DNA from: Negativicutes bacterium UBA1444
GTDB lineage: Bacteria > Bacillota > Negativicutes > UBA1444
Assembly (NCBI GenBank): GCA_002329525.1
Contig: DCTI01000243.1
Coordinates: 10,850-23,861, forward strand
Reading direction: 5' to 3'
DNA: 13,012 nt
Shown: in pieces, positions 129-10,192 of the stretch
How positions within the stretch are numbered: position 1 is the stretch's first letter
Layout of the letters: every line of letters begins with the position of its first letter
Made by a program: the position numbers and the translations under genes
The notes under the pieces: generated by a model
What the model was told of the DNA's origin: nothing
The model's database searches: none
The model's input: only the letters and a program-made list of their open reading frames with translations

Positions 129-392
129 TCAGAATTCCAGCGACATCAATTTAACTTTGACATACGGTACTTTTTGCAACTCCGACTGCATTTGTTCAAT
201 GTCCGCTTTGGGGCCGCATATCTGCAACAAAATTAGCCCGCTGGGAGAACAAGTTTCGATGCCCGCATCATGCAGACCTAAACGAACACGAATGTTGCAA
301 CCGTACCGGGTCAAAATTTCCTGGACTTTCGTCGCCGTTTCCACCCGATGCTCTTGCAGAACCGCCATGATATAGCCGCATTGCTCCATCAT
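129..392 (-). CDS. TM1266-family iron-only hydrogenase system putative regulator (ACT/NikR-C-like small protein)
   Basis: This 87-residue protein has the pattern of the TM1266 family: an opening beta-strand (GYIMAVLQEH), a helix that ends in a VQEILTRYG-like segment, then an RVRLGLHDAG strand/turn, a hydrophobic LILLQI strand and a final helix and strand (IEQMQSELQKVPYVKVK). Family members are ferredoxin-fold proteins often encoded beside [FeFe]-hydrogenase maturation genes and annotated as putative regulators; their molecular role is not settled. The start is taken as the ATG at 390-392 because AAGGAGG (401-407) sits 8 nt upstream; the ATG at 408-410 lies over this ribosome binding site. A second ATG follows immediately (387-389). 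The gene lies 70 bp after the fusion regulator on the same strand and is probably co-transcribed with it. No hydrogenase gene is visible in the window. Confidence 0.8.
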   Translation of the reverse strand: MMEQCGYIMAVLQEHRVETATKVQEILTRYGCNIRVRLGLHDAGIETCSPSGLILLQICGPKADIEQMQSELQKVPYVKVKLMSLEF

Positions 393-424
393 CTCGATGC
401 CCTCCTTCATATATTTTTGTTCCT

Positions 425-462: not shown

Positions 463-2151
463 TCAACCCAAGTTTACCCAGCCCCTGTATACCAATCCCC
501 GCATAACATCCATCGTAATTTGTTCATCTTCCAGCAGCAATTCGGTCGCATCGGTAGCCCCGACAATAATCGGTTTTCCCAGGCTCATGCAGGCAATCGC
601 CGCATGCGATGACAACCCTCCCTCTTCCACAATGAGACCTGCGGATTCCTCAATCAGCCCCAAATGTTCCGTGTCCGTAGCGGCAATGACCACAATTTTG
701 TTTTTGGCCCGTTTGTTAATATCAAACAGCGACTTCACAATCGCAACCCGACCGCTCACGATGCCGTTGCCGATCCCCTGTCCCTTCAGAATGATGTCGC
801 CGACAGTGATCAACTTGACTGAATTGTAGGCATTGGGAATATCCATGTTGCCGAGAACGCCGACAACCGAATCGCCATCTTTCAGGTGATTACCCTTAAT
901 CGCCGTATCGATGGCCAACTGCATCATATCTTCCTGGCGCAATGTCCGGCGGCTGAGCAACGGCTGAATGCCCCAGGCCAGCCGCAATTGCCGCACGACA
1001 TGCGGATTGGGCGATACGGCCAGCACCGGTAGTGCCTGACGAAATTTCGCCAGCATCCGGGGAGTGAAGCCCGTTTCCGTCGGGACCACAAAGGCCAGCG
1101 ATTTCATCGCCTGTGAGGCATGAACGGCCGTTGTGCACAGGGCATCCGCAACCGGACTGGCCACAACATGGCCGACTTTCTTCTCCGCGCGGGCAGCCTG
1201 AGTCTTTTCTTCCTGGGTGCGGGCGGCAGTTTTGACCGCGTTCAGCACGTCCAGCGGAAATTTCTGCGCCGCTCCCGCCGTCGTCACCATTACGCCGTCA
1301 AAGCCTTTTAAAACCGCTTTTTGTACGAGATCCTGACCTTCTACCCCAGAAGCGGCCATTGTTTCCTGGACGGATCCGGCGACGAACAAAAACTTGCCGG
1401 ACTGGGTCGCCTTCGTCACCAGCGCGGTCACCGCCGTCGCCTTATCGCCGTCGGCGAACAGGGCGGATTCTATGACCAAGCCGTCGGCGATTTGCAGCGC
1501 GTCTGTCAACTGGTCCATGGAAGCGGTCACCCGCGCCAGCAGCATGACGTTCGCTTCCACCGTGTCCAAAGTTCGCCGGACTTCAATCAAGGGCGTCAAA
1601 TCAGCCACCGTATCGACAATGACACAATCCATGCCGGCCTTGATCGCCATTTCGGCCGCCTGGATCCTTTTCTCCGTGGTTGCTTCGGAGATTTCCATCA
1701 TGAGGTTCGGCAGCATTCCCGTGTCGTTGGCAGCCTGGCGGACCGCCCGCACTTTGCGCGACCATTGGGCGCTGTCATCCCCCCGGGCAGTCAGAATCGC
1801 GCCATCCAGTCCCAGCTCGAACAGCGCCTGCAAGGTCCGGATATTCCAATCATCTTCCAGCATGAAAATCATCTTGGTCGCGCATCGTTCCATCGCTTCT
1901 CCCGGTGTAAACGACGAGCTGCCCGAAACATAATAGCCGCTGCCGCCGCGAACCTCAATCAGTCCGACATATTCCAAAGCGCTCAGTGCTTCCCGAACCG
2001 ATGAACGACTGGTATTGAAATGCTCGCAGAGCTCCTTTTCGCTCGGCAGCTTCTGGCCCCGCCGAAATCGCCCGCCTTCAATTCCCTGCCGCAAATAGTC
2101 AATGATGACCCGATAGGTTTTAATCCCGCTTTTTTCTCCCGGTTCTTTCAA
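463..2151 (-). CDS. GntR-type DNA-binding domain fused to a pyruvate kinase pseudoenzyme and a PEP-utiliser phosphohistidine domain; probable regulator of pckA
   Basis: This 562-residue protein starts at TTG (2149-2151), with AAGGAGG (2160-2166) 8 nt upstream; an ATG at 2206-2208 has no usable ribosome binding site. Domains in order: GntR/FadR winged helix (about 12-78, with LPSEKEL and SRSSVREAL); a pyruvate kinase A-domain barrel (about 92-312); an intact PK C-terminal domain (about 330-452, with AVSPNPHVVRQLRLAWGI); and a PEP-utiliser domain (455-560) with GGLSSHAAI, likely phosphohistidine His516. This tail is like the extra C-terminal domain of Bacillus pyruvate kinases. The PK B domain is absent: the barrel jumps from about 151 to 160. 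The RxNxSHG segment has become ILTARGD, the SKIEN lysine and metal-binding glutamate are replaced (LARVTA), the ARGDLG motif is lost, and ATQM reads AGSV. Catalysis is therefore unlikely. I infer a sensor of PEP, pyruvate or a sugar phosphate that controls divergent pckA. Confidence 0.88.
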   Translation of the reverse strand: MKEPGEKSGIKTYRVIIDYLRQGIEGGRFRRGQKLPSEKELCEHFNTSRSSVREALSALEYVGLIEVRGGSGYYVSGSSSFTPGEAMERCATKMIFMLEDDWNIRTLQALFELGLDGAILTARGDDSAQWSRKVRAVRQAANDTGMLPNLMMEISEATTEKRIQAAEMAIKAGMDCVIVDTVADLTPLIEVRRTLDTVEANVMLLARVTASMDQLTDALQIADGLVIESALFADGDKATAVTALVTKATQSGKFLFVAGSVQETMAASGVEGQDLVQKAVLKGFDGVMVTTAGAAQKFPLDVLNAVKTAARTQEEKTQAARAEKKVGHVVASPVADALCTTAVHASQAMKSLAFVVPTETGFTPRMLAKFRQALPVLAVSPNPHVVRQLRLAWGIQPLLSRRTLRQEDMMQLAIDTAIKGNHLKDGDSVVGVLGNMDIPNAYNSVKLITVGDIILKGQGIGNGIVSGRVAIVKSLFDINKRAKNKIVVIAATDTEHLGLIEESAGLIVEEGGLSSHAAIACMSLGKPIIVGATDATELLLEDEQITMDVMRGLVYRGWVNLG

Positions 2152-2166
2152 GAAAACGGCCTCCTT

Positions 2167-2179
2167 CCTGTCTGACAGG
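2167..2179. promoter_or_regulatory. Perfect palindrome CCTGTC-T-GACAGG, candidate GntR operator in the regulator's leader
   Basis: A perfect 6+1+6 palindrome has the GT-N3-AC core (GTCTGAC) typical of FadR-subfamily GntR operators. It sits immediately upstream of the ribosome binding site of the fusion regulator, where binding could block its own transcription. The same 7-bp core recurs at 2319-2325 near pckA. Operator function is inferred. Confidence 0.6.
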
Positions 2180-2297: not shown

Positions 2298-2350
2298 TAT
2301 AATTAAACCCGTAAATCAGTCTGACATGTTTGTTTTATATTGGGTATCTT
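2298..2350 (+). promoter_or_regulatory. pckA promoter region (two candidate sigma-A promoters)
   Basis: Two arrangements are possible. One has a perfect TATAAT at 2298-2303 with only a weak -35. The other has CTGACA (2321-2326, 5/6 to TTGACA), an 18-nt spacer and TATCTT (2345-2350). In the second, the candidate operator core GTCTGAC overlaps the -35; in the first it lies just downstream of the start. Either suits repression by the divergent GntR-type protein. On the minus strand the same AT-rich stretch could serve the regulator gene, but no clear -35 is seen. Confidence 0.4.
2317..2328. promoter_or_regulatory. Candidate GntR operator CAGTCTGACATG upstream of pckA
   Basis: This imperfect palindrome shares the GTCTGAC core (2319-2325) with the perfect palindrome at 2167-2179, and fits the FadR-type GT-N3-AC pattern. 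It overlaps a candidate -35 hexamer of pckA. A further TGTCAG half-site in inverted orientation lies at 2360-2365, 33 nt beyond CTGACA (2321-2326). Binding by the fusion regulator is an inference. Confidence 0.5.
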
Positions 2351-2394
2351 ATTTAAATTTGTCAGTTTAATATTCGGTAGAGGGGGTTGATGCA

Positions 2395-3993
2395 ATGAAT
2401 ATCGATTTCGAAGAACGGTTATTGCGCAGACACTCGGGTCCGGTTCATATTAATTTGGCAATTCCCCGTCTGGTTGAAACCGCTCTGTCCCGCAGCGAAG
2501 GCGTATTGTCAGCCGCTGGCGCCCTGCGCGTTTCTACCGGCAAATATACCGGTCGCTCCCCCAACGATAAATTTATTGTCGATACCCCAGACGTTCATCA
2601 CGACATCTGGTGGGAAAATAATCTGCGGATATCCGAGACGGCTTTCGACCGCTTACTTCAAAAAACCGTCGACTATCTCGACGGCCGGGAACTGTTTGTT
2701 TTTGAAGGTTTTGCCGGTGCCGACTCCGCACACGCTCTGCCAGTCCGAGTCATCAACGAATATGCGTGGCACAATATTTTTGTCCAGCAACTGTTCCTGC
2801 GTTCCCATGATACCGGCTGGACGTTCCCGGACGAGGCAGGGTTCACCGTGATTGCCGCTCCCAGTGTCAAGGCCGTGCCGGAGCAGGACGGCACAAATTC
2901 GGAAGCGTTCATCATCGTCAACTTCCCACGAAAAATTATTTTAATCGGCGGTACTCAGTACGCGGGGGAAATGAAGAAATCCATCTTTTCCGTGCTCAAC
3001 TATTTGCTGCCGAAGCAAGGCATCCTGTCCATGCACTGTTCCGCCAACCGGGGCTCAAAAAACGATGTTTCCCTGTTTTTTGGTCTTTCCGGTACAGGAA
3101 AAACTTCTTTGTCCGCCGACCCGGATCGGTTTCTGATCGGCGATGACGAACATGGCTGGGCGGAAAACGGCGTTTTCAACTTCGAAGGTGGTTGTTATGC
3201 GAAATGCATCAATCTGAGCCATGAAAACGAGCCGCAAATCTGGGATGCCATTCGGTTTGGCACGGTTCTGGAAAACACGGTCATCGACCCCGAAAGCCGG
3301 ACAATCGATTATGCCAGCGATGCCATCACCGAAAACACCCGGGCCGCTTATCCCGTGCACTATATTCCCAACTGCATTTATCCCGGCGCCGGCCAGCACC
3401 CCAGCACAGTCATTTTCCTGACAGCCGACGCTTTCGGCGTCTTGCCTCCCATTGCCAAGCTTTTACCGGAACAGGCCATGTATTACTTCCTGTCCGGCTA
3501 TACCTCCAAGCTCGCCGGAACCGAACGCGGCATCACCGAGCCCCAGGCGACTTTCTCCGCCTGTTTTGGCTCACCGTTTCTGCCGCTGCACCCCATGACT
3601 TACGCCAACTTGCTTAAAGAAAAGATTGCCCGTCATCAGACCCGGGTATTTTTAATCAACACCGGTTGGCAGGGTGGCGCCTACGGGATCGGCAAGCGCA
3701 TCAGCATCCAGCATACGCGCCGGATGGTCGCCGCAGCGATGGATGGCTATCTGGACTATGTCGATTATGAAATTGACCCCATCTTTAATTTGCACATTCC
3801 GGTTCGTTGCCCGGGAATCCCGGATGGGATTTTAAATCCCCGGACCTCTTGGTCGGATCCGGCGGCTTACCACAAATCCGCCATTCATCTGGCCGGAATG
3901 TTTGATAAAAATTTTCGCAAGTTCACGGGAGTCCCCCAGGAAGTGGCTGACTCCGGGCCCTTTGCCATCAAAGGGATCGTGGACGCGGGCTGA
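2395..3993 (+). CDS. pckA: Phosphoenolpyruvate carboxykinase (ATP)
   Basis: The enzyme interconverts oxaloacetate plus ATP with PEP, CO2 and ADP in the cytoplasm, at the PEP-pyruvate-oxaloacetate node; in fermenters it may also run in the carboxylating direction. The 532-residue length is normal for the ATP-dependent family. Visible motifs are TGRSPNDKF (52-60, substrate site), EYAWHNIF (122-129), [12 protein letters not shown] (185-196, with the metal-site lysine region), the P-loop [11 protein letters not shown] (230-240), IGDDEHGW (248-255) and [13 protein letters not shown] after it. The start is the ATG at 2395, preceded by AGAGGGGG at about 8 nt; the nearby ATG at 2389 hits a stop at once. 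The gene is divergent from the GntR/pyruvate-kinase fusion regulator and has its own terminator downstream, so it is probably monocistronic. Confidence 0.97.
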
Positions 3994-9066: not shown

Positions 9067-9501
9067 TCAGGCATCCGTGCCCAAATGCATGATTCCCAAT
9101 CCGGCGCGATCATGGTTCGTCAGCGGATGTAACGCCGACTCTCCAAACAGGGCAACCGCCACCCACTGGCTATCACGCACAACGGCGATTTTCACCGCAA
9201 CACTTACGCTGCTGGCAACGTTGACCATAATGCCCCGCTTCGCTTCGTCGGTTGCATGCAACAACGCATGATAATTCGTGGGGGTTTTTGCCACGAGACC
9301 GGTATTCATGCAAGCCCCGATTACGGCTTTCGTCGTCTTGAGCTGAAATTCCGACAGCGCGGAATTTCCGCTCATTTCCGTGACAACAAAGCGGAATCCC
9401 TGGTCGGCCAGCATTTTTTTCACGGTTTCTTCGTCCTGCATATTGCGGGTCAGGGCCAACAACATGGCGGCGGTCCCAACGCTGCGGATATTGTCAAACA
9501 T
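9067..9501 (-). CDS. HutP family protein (histidine-responsive RNA-binding antiterminator homologue)
   Basis: HutP in Bacillus binds mRNA in the presence of L-histidine and Mg2+ and prevents termination ahead of histidine-utilisation genes. This 144-residue protein aligns along its full length: GTAAMLLALTRN, then GFRFVVTEMSGNSALSEFQLKTTKAVIGAC, then YHALLHATDEAKRG, then WVAVALFGESALHPLTNHDRAGLGIMHLG. His78, His82 and Glu86 have the spacing of HutP His73, His77 and Glu81, and His139 matches the C-terminal metal-binding histidine, so ligand binding looks preserved. The start is uncertain. The ATG at 9499-9501 has GGAG close upstream and best fits HutP; ATGs at 9519 and 9543 are alternatives. 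A TATAAT at 9533-9538 could serve as its -10. There are no hut genes nearby; the next gene is a CoA-transferase. Confidence 0.82.
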   Translation of the reverse strand: MFDNIRSVGTAAMLLALTRNMQDEETVKKMLADQGFRFVVTEMSGNSALSEFQLKTTKAVIGACMNTGLVAKTPTNYHALLHATDEAKRGIMVNVASSVSVAVKIAVVRDSQWVAVALFGESALHPLTNHDRAGLGIMHLGTDA

Positions 9502-9619
9502 ATTTCTCCGGCTATCCATCCAAATCATACGAATTATATTCATTACTTTATCATCATTCGGTCTAATTCGCAACAAGATTCGGTGGCACAGCTTTCCCCG
9601 GATACACCTCGCACCGAAA

Positions 9620-10192
9620 TTAGCGGAAGCCGGCAAGTTCGAAGGTGGCAACTGGGCGATATCGCCGTCGGCCTTCACTGATTTCGCTGGCAATGAGCGC
9701 AAACTGTTCGATTCGCATCGACGGAAATGGCGGCACAGGAAAATCGAGCCAACCGTTTTTCAATATGCCATCCCCCTGAAGAAAAAACGCGTCCCTGGCT
9801 AGGGTTATGTGGGGTTTATACGCGCGTTCCTCAACCGGAAAACCCAATTCCAGCATTGCCTGCGCAACGCCGGCCTGCAAAACCGACAATGCCGAAACAT
9901 CGCCTTTCATTCCAACCCAGACCACTCGCACAGGGTTCGGCGAGCCAAAATAACCGAGACGGTCGCCAACAGAGACCTGAAACGATGCCTGCCGAGACGC
10001 CACCACTGTCAGAACTTGACGAATGTCATCGATTCGTGATTCCGGCGTTTCGCCCAGAAAATGCAAAGTCAGATGCAAATTATCGCGGGCCGGAAATCTG
10101 CCCCCGCGCACCAAGCTCCGGATCTTATTTTGCAGGGAACACAACTCATCCACTACCATTGAGGGAAAATCGACACCAATAAACAGTCTCAT
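9620..10192 (-). CDS. thpR: RNA 2',3'-cyclic phosphodiesterase (2H/LigT family)
   Basis: ThpR proteins open 2',3'-cyclic phosphates on RNA ends. The 190-residue length is normal, and both HxT motifs of the 2H fold are present: HLT (40-42) in NLHLTLHFLGE and HIT (128-130) in YKPHITLAR. The start is the ATG at 10190-10192, giving the typical MRLFIGVDFP opening, with GGAGG 6 nt upstream; the open frame extends further but the extension overlaps the DUF503 gene. The gap from the DUF503 gene is only 25 bp, so the two are probably one operon. The natural substrate in bacteria is not well defined. Confidence 0.92.
   Translation of the reverse strand: MRLFIGVDFPSMVVDELCSLQNKIRSLVRGGRFPARDNLHLTLHFLGETPESRIDDIRQVLTVVASRQASFQVSVGDRLGYFGSPNPVRVVWVGMKGDVSALSVLQAGVAQAMLELGFPVEERAYKPHITLARDAFFLQGDGILKNGWLDFPVPPFPSMRIEQFALIASEISEGRRRYRPVATFELAGFR

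Follow-up and report, generated by a model that had tools for sequence, protein, structure and literature searches.

Why should a gene that reads largely as a pyruvate kinase (PK) begin with the DNA-binding head of a GntR regulator? The question is raised by a stretch of 13,012 nucleotides (hereafter the window) from contig DCTI01000243.1 of Negativicutes bacterium UBA1444 (G000 in our survey), in which a prediction made from the letters alone, the original prediction, had seen a glycolytic enzyme turned into a transcription factor.

Domain architecture of the fusion protein

Profile searches recovered the domain order that the original prediction had read. The strand is corrected to minus; the TTG start codon lies at 2151, behind AGGAGG. 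The gene and its parts are:

463..2151, minus strand: fusion of GntR, dead pyruvate kinase barrel (no B domain), PK C-domain and PEP-utiliser, 562 aa, TTG start
2160..2165, minus strand: AGGAGG, ribosome binding site of the fusion gene (from the sequence)
1927..2118, minus strand: GntR winged-helix domain, residues 12-75 (Pfam PF00392, E 3.7e-19)
1252..1887, minus strand: pyruvate kinase barrel, about residues 89-300, without B domain, catalytic residues lost
814..1146, minus strand: PK C-domain (allosteric domain), residues 336-446 (Pfam PF02887, E 6.4e-23)
1057..1080, minus strand: TETGFTPR loop, residues 358-365, retained equivalent of the PK effector phosphate loop
496..705, minus strand: PEP-utiliser (extra C-terminal) domain, residues 483-552 (Pfam PF00391, E 1.3e-16)
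604..612, minus strand: SSH motif, residues 514-516 (His516 in 64/64 aligned members)

The head is of the GntR family (PF00392, 68.6 bits against a cut-off of 27), and the barrel plus C-domain have the fold of pyruvate kinase. The Pfam match to the barrel was weak (residues 156-301, 24.2 bits against a gathering score of 30), and the NCBIfam PK model NF004978 matched residues 147-558 (E 2.2e-59) with 201 bits, under its cut-off of 462, as expected of a decayed enzyme. The nearest PDB relatives by sequence were 2e28 and 3t05, both PKs with an extra C-terminal domain. Behind the head, the Pfam scan matched PK, PK_C and PEP-utilizers only, and none of the described GntR effector domains. The head had been thought to replace the start of the kinase; it is present, but it precedes an almost full barrel. 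The proposed deletion of the B domain was borne out, the domain being absent from the members printed in the alignment described below, with the column of R119 at the domain edge gapped in 64/64.

Distribution and descent of the family

Two protein searches returned the same set of 65 proteins that combine GntR, PK_C and PEP-utiliser domains and are 42-100% identical to the window's protein; as the searches scored the candidates sharing most words, the family has at least 65 members, and remoter fusions could be missed. Two matches were excluded: P0025 (476 aa), without GntR and matching a portion of the window's protein letter for letter, and P0067 (399 aa), a partial protein. The carriers are some anaerobic bacteria, the members' organisms including Lucifera butyrica, Anaerosporomusa subterranea, Sporomusaceae and Negativicutes bacteria, and the source annotations vary among 'pyruvate kinase', 'pyruvate kinase alpha/beta domain-containing protein' and 'transcription regulator hth gntr'. 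Among the matches listed in order of E-value, a full-length fusion was present in six of 380 genomes of the class (G000, G089, G289, G315, G317, and G318), a survey that a fusion split over contigs would escape. G317 belongs to the same genus as the window's genome, and the fusion stretches of G317 and G315 are those of the records SM1-B11.1 (Sporomusaceae) and Lucifera butyrica, respectively. An artefact joining two genes is ruled out, since the order is common to the 65 members and no internal stop occurs in any of the six genomes.

Elsewhere, 80 of 200 loci were kept, and two of these, L009 and L010, contain the full fusion; they are the G317 and G315 places. Eight of the other 78 loci, picked for long spans or ranges, were read and contained no fusion (seven GntR frames of 228-269 codons, and one that was longer and of another kind), and in the remaining 70, judged from the table alone, the match was confined to the GntR head.

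A phylogenetic tree was built from the C-terminal 235 columns, with the root chosen on four Bacillus-type PKs and with 18 fusions hand-picked for spread, the same rows that served for the conservation figures below. The fusions grouped in a single clade (100/100), whose stem is long (1.83 changes per site) and whose inner branches are shorter; the clade lies on the Negativicutes side of a 100/100 branch. Placement beside other Negativicutes PKs was weakly supported (87/68), and the exact sister is unsure because of the long stem. The original prediction had read a Bacillus-type PK; in this tree, the fusion falls on the side of the Negativicutes PKs, at an exact place that is unsure. Among the PKs, the highest score with the fusion profile (290 bits) was that of a catalytically intact one from another genome of the class (L095, G316:C47); in the tree it is the first to branch off on the Negativicutes side, though weakly supported there. 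The possibility that the fusion is the cell's only pyruvate kinase is ruled out by a separate PK with intact motifs in the window's genome; the match list also includes, for all of the other five fusion genomes, a further place that matches PK alone. In the PEP-utiliser domain of the normal PK of the window's genome (L002, 802-2754), TSQ replaces TSH, so that the His kept by the fusion is lost.

Loss of the active site and retention of regulatory parts

We aligned 64 of the 65 members, including the window's own, with 11 PKs that have intact catalytic motifs (P0065 was missed by the motif used for cutting). Residues follow PK numbering. Of the five key residues R72, K269, E271, D295, and T327, none is retained in 55 of the 64 members and one in the other nine (K269 in eight, D295 in one), against all five in 11/11 PKs. 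In the window's protein, I119, T121, R207, T209, L231, and G259 stand for R72, N74, K269, E271, D295, and T327. The altered catalytic positions noticed originally in this one protein thus extend to a loss of the active site in all 64 members aligned, and the fusion protein is very probably a non-catalytic DNA-binding protein.

The regulatory parts have been retained. The effector phosphate loop was found by motif in 61 of 65 members, with equivalents of PK G435 and R439 in 64/64; an E-E/D-x-G-x-SSHAA motif was present in 64 of 65, the His and both Ser of SSH being found in all 64 aligned. In the GntR head, SRS[ST]VREAL occurs in 63 of 65 members and GRSSVREAL in one more. Mean consensus fractions across the 18 diverse members were 0.79 for GntR, 0.58 and 0.46 for the barrel parts, 0.71 for PK_C and 0.79 for the PEP-utiliser, which places the constraint in the GntR head and in the domains with regulatory function. 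These fractions, together with the Pfam matches, agree with the earlier view that the C-domain and the PEP-utiliser domain are well kept. A PK loop near the effector site (such as PVGxxGTTN) is altered in the family (NMDIPNAYNSV in the window), and therefore the ligand of the fusion may differ from PK ligands.

The divergent pckA gene and its candidate operators

PEP carboxykinase makes PEP in gluconeogenesis, and pyruvate kinase consumes it. In all six fusion genomes, pckA adjoins the fusion gene divergently, each copy scoring above the curated cut-off of TIGR00224; this link was absent from the original prediction. It is highly probable that pckA is a target of the fusion protein. In the window, the region contains:

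2395..3993, plus strand: pckA, ATP-type PEP carboxykinase, divergent neighbour and proposed target
2167..2179, no strand: perfect palindrome CCTGTCTGACAGG, candidate auto-operator directly before the fusion ribosome site
2298..2303, plus strand: TATAAT, candidate -10 box of pckA (string match)
2316..2328, no strand: TCAGTCTGACATG, candidate operator 1 of pckA
2358..2370, no strand: TTTGTCAGTTTAA, weaker candidate for a second pckA operator (operator 2), centred 42 bp from operator 1

On the other side, the genes behind the fusion gene vary. It is followed in the window's genome by CPF_0552, DUF362 (DUF362-ferredoxin), B3/4 and threonine synthase genes, all on its own strand, in G317 by DUF362, B3/4 and threonine synthase, in G289 by prephenate dehydratase, DUF362, an aminoacyl-tRNA editing domain, B3/4 and threonine synthase, and in G315 by prephenate dehydratase; in G318 a carboxylase/decarboxylase subunit gene comes after pckA. 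The CPF_0552-family protein of the window (93 aa, 129-410, minus strand, about 50 bp after the fusion gene) has a weak TM1266-like match. In G289 (L119 7096-7959, minus strand) and G315 (L121 9838-10716, plus strand), prephenate dehydratase lies directly behind the fusion gene, and the two genes may form an operon; PEP is among the precursors of the aromatic amino acids. Farther away in the window, a HutP-family protein (9067-9702, minus strand, E 1.3e-31) has a CoA-transferase and a LigT-type gene as neighbours, and no histidine-use genes were among its scanned neighbours.

Just two GTCWGAC occur in the 13-kb window, both within the 243-bp gap between the fusion gene and pckA. This count alone is unremarkable, because shuffles of the window contained 0.74 on average and two or more in 35/200; it is the place and the recurrence that are remarkable. 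GTCWGAC was present in the pckA leader of four of the six fusion genomes, against none of 29 control leaders (Fisher p 2.9e-4), the 33 control genomes of the class without fusion having been hand-picked for family spread, not at random. The pckA leader of G315 has a degenerate GTCTGAT only, with partners at 18 and 67 bp, and that of G089 has no GTCWGAC site. The controls comprise 28 genomes with a pckA match, two of them giving two loci (30 in all, of which L152, with almost no upstream DNA, was dropped), and were scanned from -350 to +60 of mechanically called gene starts; the scanned stretches contained two GTCWGAC matches, one within the reading frame upstream of pckA (G080) and the other a very short way into pckA (G288). 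The latter, GTCTGAC at L151 1467-1473, lies behind an ATG in a genome that has no fusion and belongs to the same family as G289, and might be chance or a relict.

In G000, G289, G317, and G318, the site is paired with a weaker partner, 42, 39, 41, and 41 bp apart, respectively. In shuffles of the flanks, four regions fell into a common 4-bp window in 0/3000 and three regions in 9/3000, a statistic that is flattered by a scoring consensus taken from the same leaders and by shuffles that preserve single-base composition only. The boxes of FadR-type GntR sites are described as TKGT and ACMA, GT and AC being typically 3 bp apart (PMC4494728), and the candidate site TKGTCWGACMA fits this FadR-subfamily form, TKGT-N3-ACMA. 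The site centre nearest to TATAAT lies 24 (G000), 22 (G289) and 25 bp (G318, the weaker of two sites) after its start, a place that suits repression; the distance is 32 bp in G315 and 37 bp in G317, where a further weak site is at 24. From this layout we infer that the fusion protein probably represses pckA. The CCTGTCTGACAGG palindrome directly before the ribosome site of the regulator in G000 suggests autoregulation, and no such palindrome was seen before the fusion ribosome site in the other five fusion genomes. A wide regulon found no support: TGTCWGACA occurs genome-wide 18, 14, 45, 32, 27, and 15 times in G000, G317, G289, G318, G315, and G089, against 13, 20, 41, 36, 34, and 18 for reversed-pattern controls, i.e., slightly above the control in two genomes and below it in four.

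A dead kinase as probable regulator of pckA, and alternative explanations

We propose that a duplicated pyruvate kinase became a transcription factor, whose GntR head would bind the GTCWGAC palindromes in the divergent pckA leader and block transcription of pckA. The non-catalytic kinase part is probably a tetrameric sensor, in which the retained C-domain loop might bind AMP, ribose 5-phosphate or a related sugar phosphate, the activators of PKs with the extra C-domain; the PEP-utiliser domain would transmit the state and thus change the spacing or affinity of the DNA heads, and the reach of a tetramer could span two operators separated by about 40 bp, or four helical turns. Plausibly, pckA would be kept off when the energy charge is low (AMP) or pentose phosphate is abundant; both the sign and the ligand are guesses. 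The original idea of a glycolytic enzyme turned transcription factor is thus well supported as something that we infer from the conserved fusion, the lost active site, the conserved C-domain, the pckA neighbour and the GntR-type sites. Of the signals that it named, PEP and pyruvate are unlikely to be sensed in the former active site, whose binding residues have been lost; the phosphate loop, having been kept, speaks rather for a nucleotide or a sugar phosphate. In PKs with an extra C-domain, which form tetramers, AMP and ribose 5-phosphate bind at the C-domain effector site and ATP inhibits, and in B. subtilis PK the extra domain is required for the effector response (PMC11834443), whereas AMP activation of T. 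saccharolyticum PK had no need of it (PMC7925390). Ligand binding by the C-domain phosphate loop is by a small measure the likelier case, and the proposal as a whole, a GntR-PK repressor of pckA that senses a phosphorylated metabolite through this loop, is on balance likely.

In a bolder form, which we put forward tentatively as an unlikely extension, the PK tetramer would have been converted whole into an allosteric DNA-looping repressor: the inherited R-to-T rocking would move four GntR heads that bridge the two operators spaced by about 40 bp, driven by energy charge (AMP or ribose 5-phosphate versus ATP) and possibly by the phospho-state of SSH. If this were true, the allostery that shuts PK off in gluconeogenesis would also set the gene of the opposing enzyme, and enzyme and gene would obey the same signal via the same molecular device.

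A different signal might also operate. Phosphorylation of SSH (His516, Ser514), e.g., by a DUF299 (PSRP/YqfL-type) kinase or a PEP- or ATP-dependent enzyme, might control DNA binding, in accordance with the strict conservation of the His and both Ser, the His being lost from the normal PK of the same genome. Phosphorylation of TSH in PEP-utiliser domains and DUF299 kinases have both been described (PMC9009071), and a DUF299 gene is present in all six fusion genomes, beside a CcpN-like gene in three of four examined. This presence is unspecific, however, because DUF299 also occurs in 20 of 22 genomes without fusion; the Thr reported as the DUF299 target is Ser in 64/64 members, and changing His and Thr of the motif to Ala in B. 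subtilis PK gave no growth phenotype (PMC11834443). We regard control by phosphorylation as rather improbable.

Somewhat less likely still is a fusion protein that chiefly activates pckA, or whose effect changes sign with the ligand. Two-site arrangements occur with activators too, and a promoter scan of the window favoured CTGACA-18-TATCTT, with operator 1 overlapping the -35 box (one found against 0.7 in shuffles). In all five leaders with any site, however, the sites lie downstream of TATAAT, where activators seldom act, although these -10 boxes are string matches only.

It is improbable that the conserved GTCTGACA is the -35 box of pckA or the site of another factor, the fusion regulating something else. 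In the window, TATCTT stands 18 bp behind CTGACA and agrees with a -10 box at 4/6 positions, but in G289, G315, G317, and G318 nothing placed 16-18 bp behind the site hexamers has more than 3/6 matches to TATAAT, which disfavours the GTCWGAC site as a -35 box outside the window; moreover, the site is absent from the 29 control leaders, and pckA is adjacent in 6/6. An enzymatic or scaffolding role in PEP metabolism with an incidental GntR head, to which the conserved PK-like domains and several source annotations as pyruvate kinase might point, is very improbable in view of the active site lost in 64/64 members, the absent B domain and a head that is among the best conserved parts.

Significance and comparison with known systems

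The fusion is real and conserved, a pseudoenzyme regulator, most likely of pckA, and is undescribed within the open PMC literature searched: no description of a GntR-PK fusion was found in open-licence articles, judged by titles and the beginnings of abstracts, in line with the original remark that no pyruvate kinase type of GntR regulator was known. By its sequence, it constitutes a new subfamily within the GntR family. Pyruvate kinase is among the best studied allosteric enzymes, and evolution seems to have dropped the reaction, kept the allosteric parts and set them on the gene of the opposing step. If confirmed, the fusion would add a new effector class to the GntR regulators, give an independent view, unmasked by catalysis, of sensing by the C-domain and the little understood extra C-terminal domain, and provide a natural sensor of sugar phosphates or energy charge. 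It would also follow that the family is mislabelled in those sources that call it 'pyruvate kinase'.

The CcpN system shares with the fusion its proposed target, pckA, and the physiological switch; in B. subtilis, CcpN, with DUF299/YqfL, represses pckA and gapB. CcpN consists of HTH_11 plus CBS domains, unlike the fusion protein, in which Pfam gave a weak HTH_11 match (18.2 bits, below 25) and no CBS, and it is a separate gene in three fusion genomes (G000, G317, and G089). Since CcpN-like genes coexist with the fusion there, a replacement of CcpN by the fusion is not supported, and they could control pckA by themselves. They lie directly before a DUF299 (YqfL-type) gene at L165, L167, and L160; in G315, one of two DUF299 genes was examined, and its scanned neighbour was a part of glycyl-tRNA synthetase.

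Compared with PKs that carry the extra C-domain (Geobacillus stearothermophilus 2e28, B. subtilis Pyk), the fusion differs by its missing B domain, dead active site, GntR head and adjacency to pckA. With the GntR family it shares the PF00392 head, and its candidate site has the 3 bp between GT and AC that are reported for FadR-type operators, but in place of the effector parts of the FadR, HutC, MocR, YtrA, AraR, and PlmA subfamilies it has a pyruvate kinase. MocR, a GntR head on an aminotransferase-like domain that uses PLP, resembles the fusion in joining this head to a metabolic enzyme fold, a principle that is thus already known, although its enzyme fold is a different one. MocR is named as a GntR subfamily in PMC4494728. 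Sensors derived from dead enzymes are likewise already known: in BzdR, as described in PMC3602430, a DNA-binding domain is combined with a shikimate-kinase-like effector domain, an enzyme domain which, as in the fusion, lost its activity and became a sensor, but with another enzyme fold, with benzoyl-CoA as ligand and with benzoate genes as targets.
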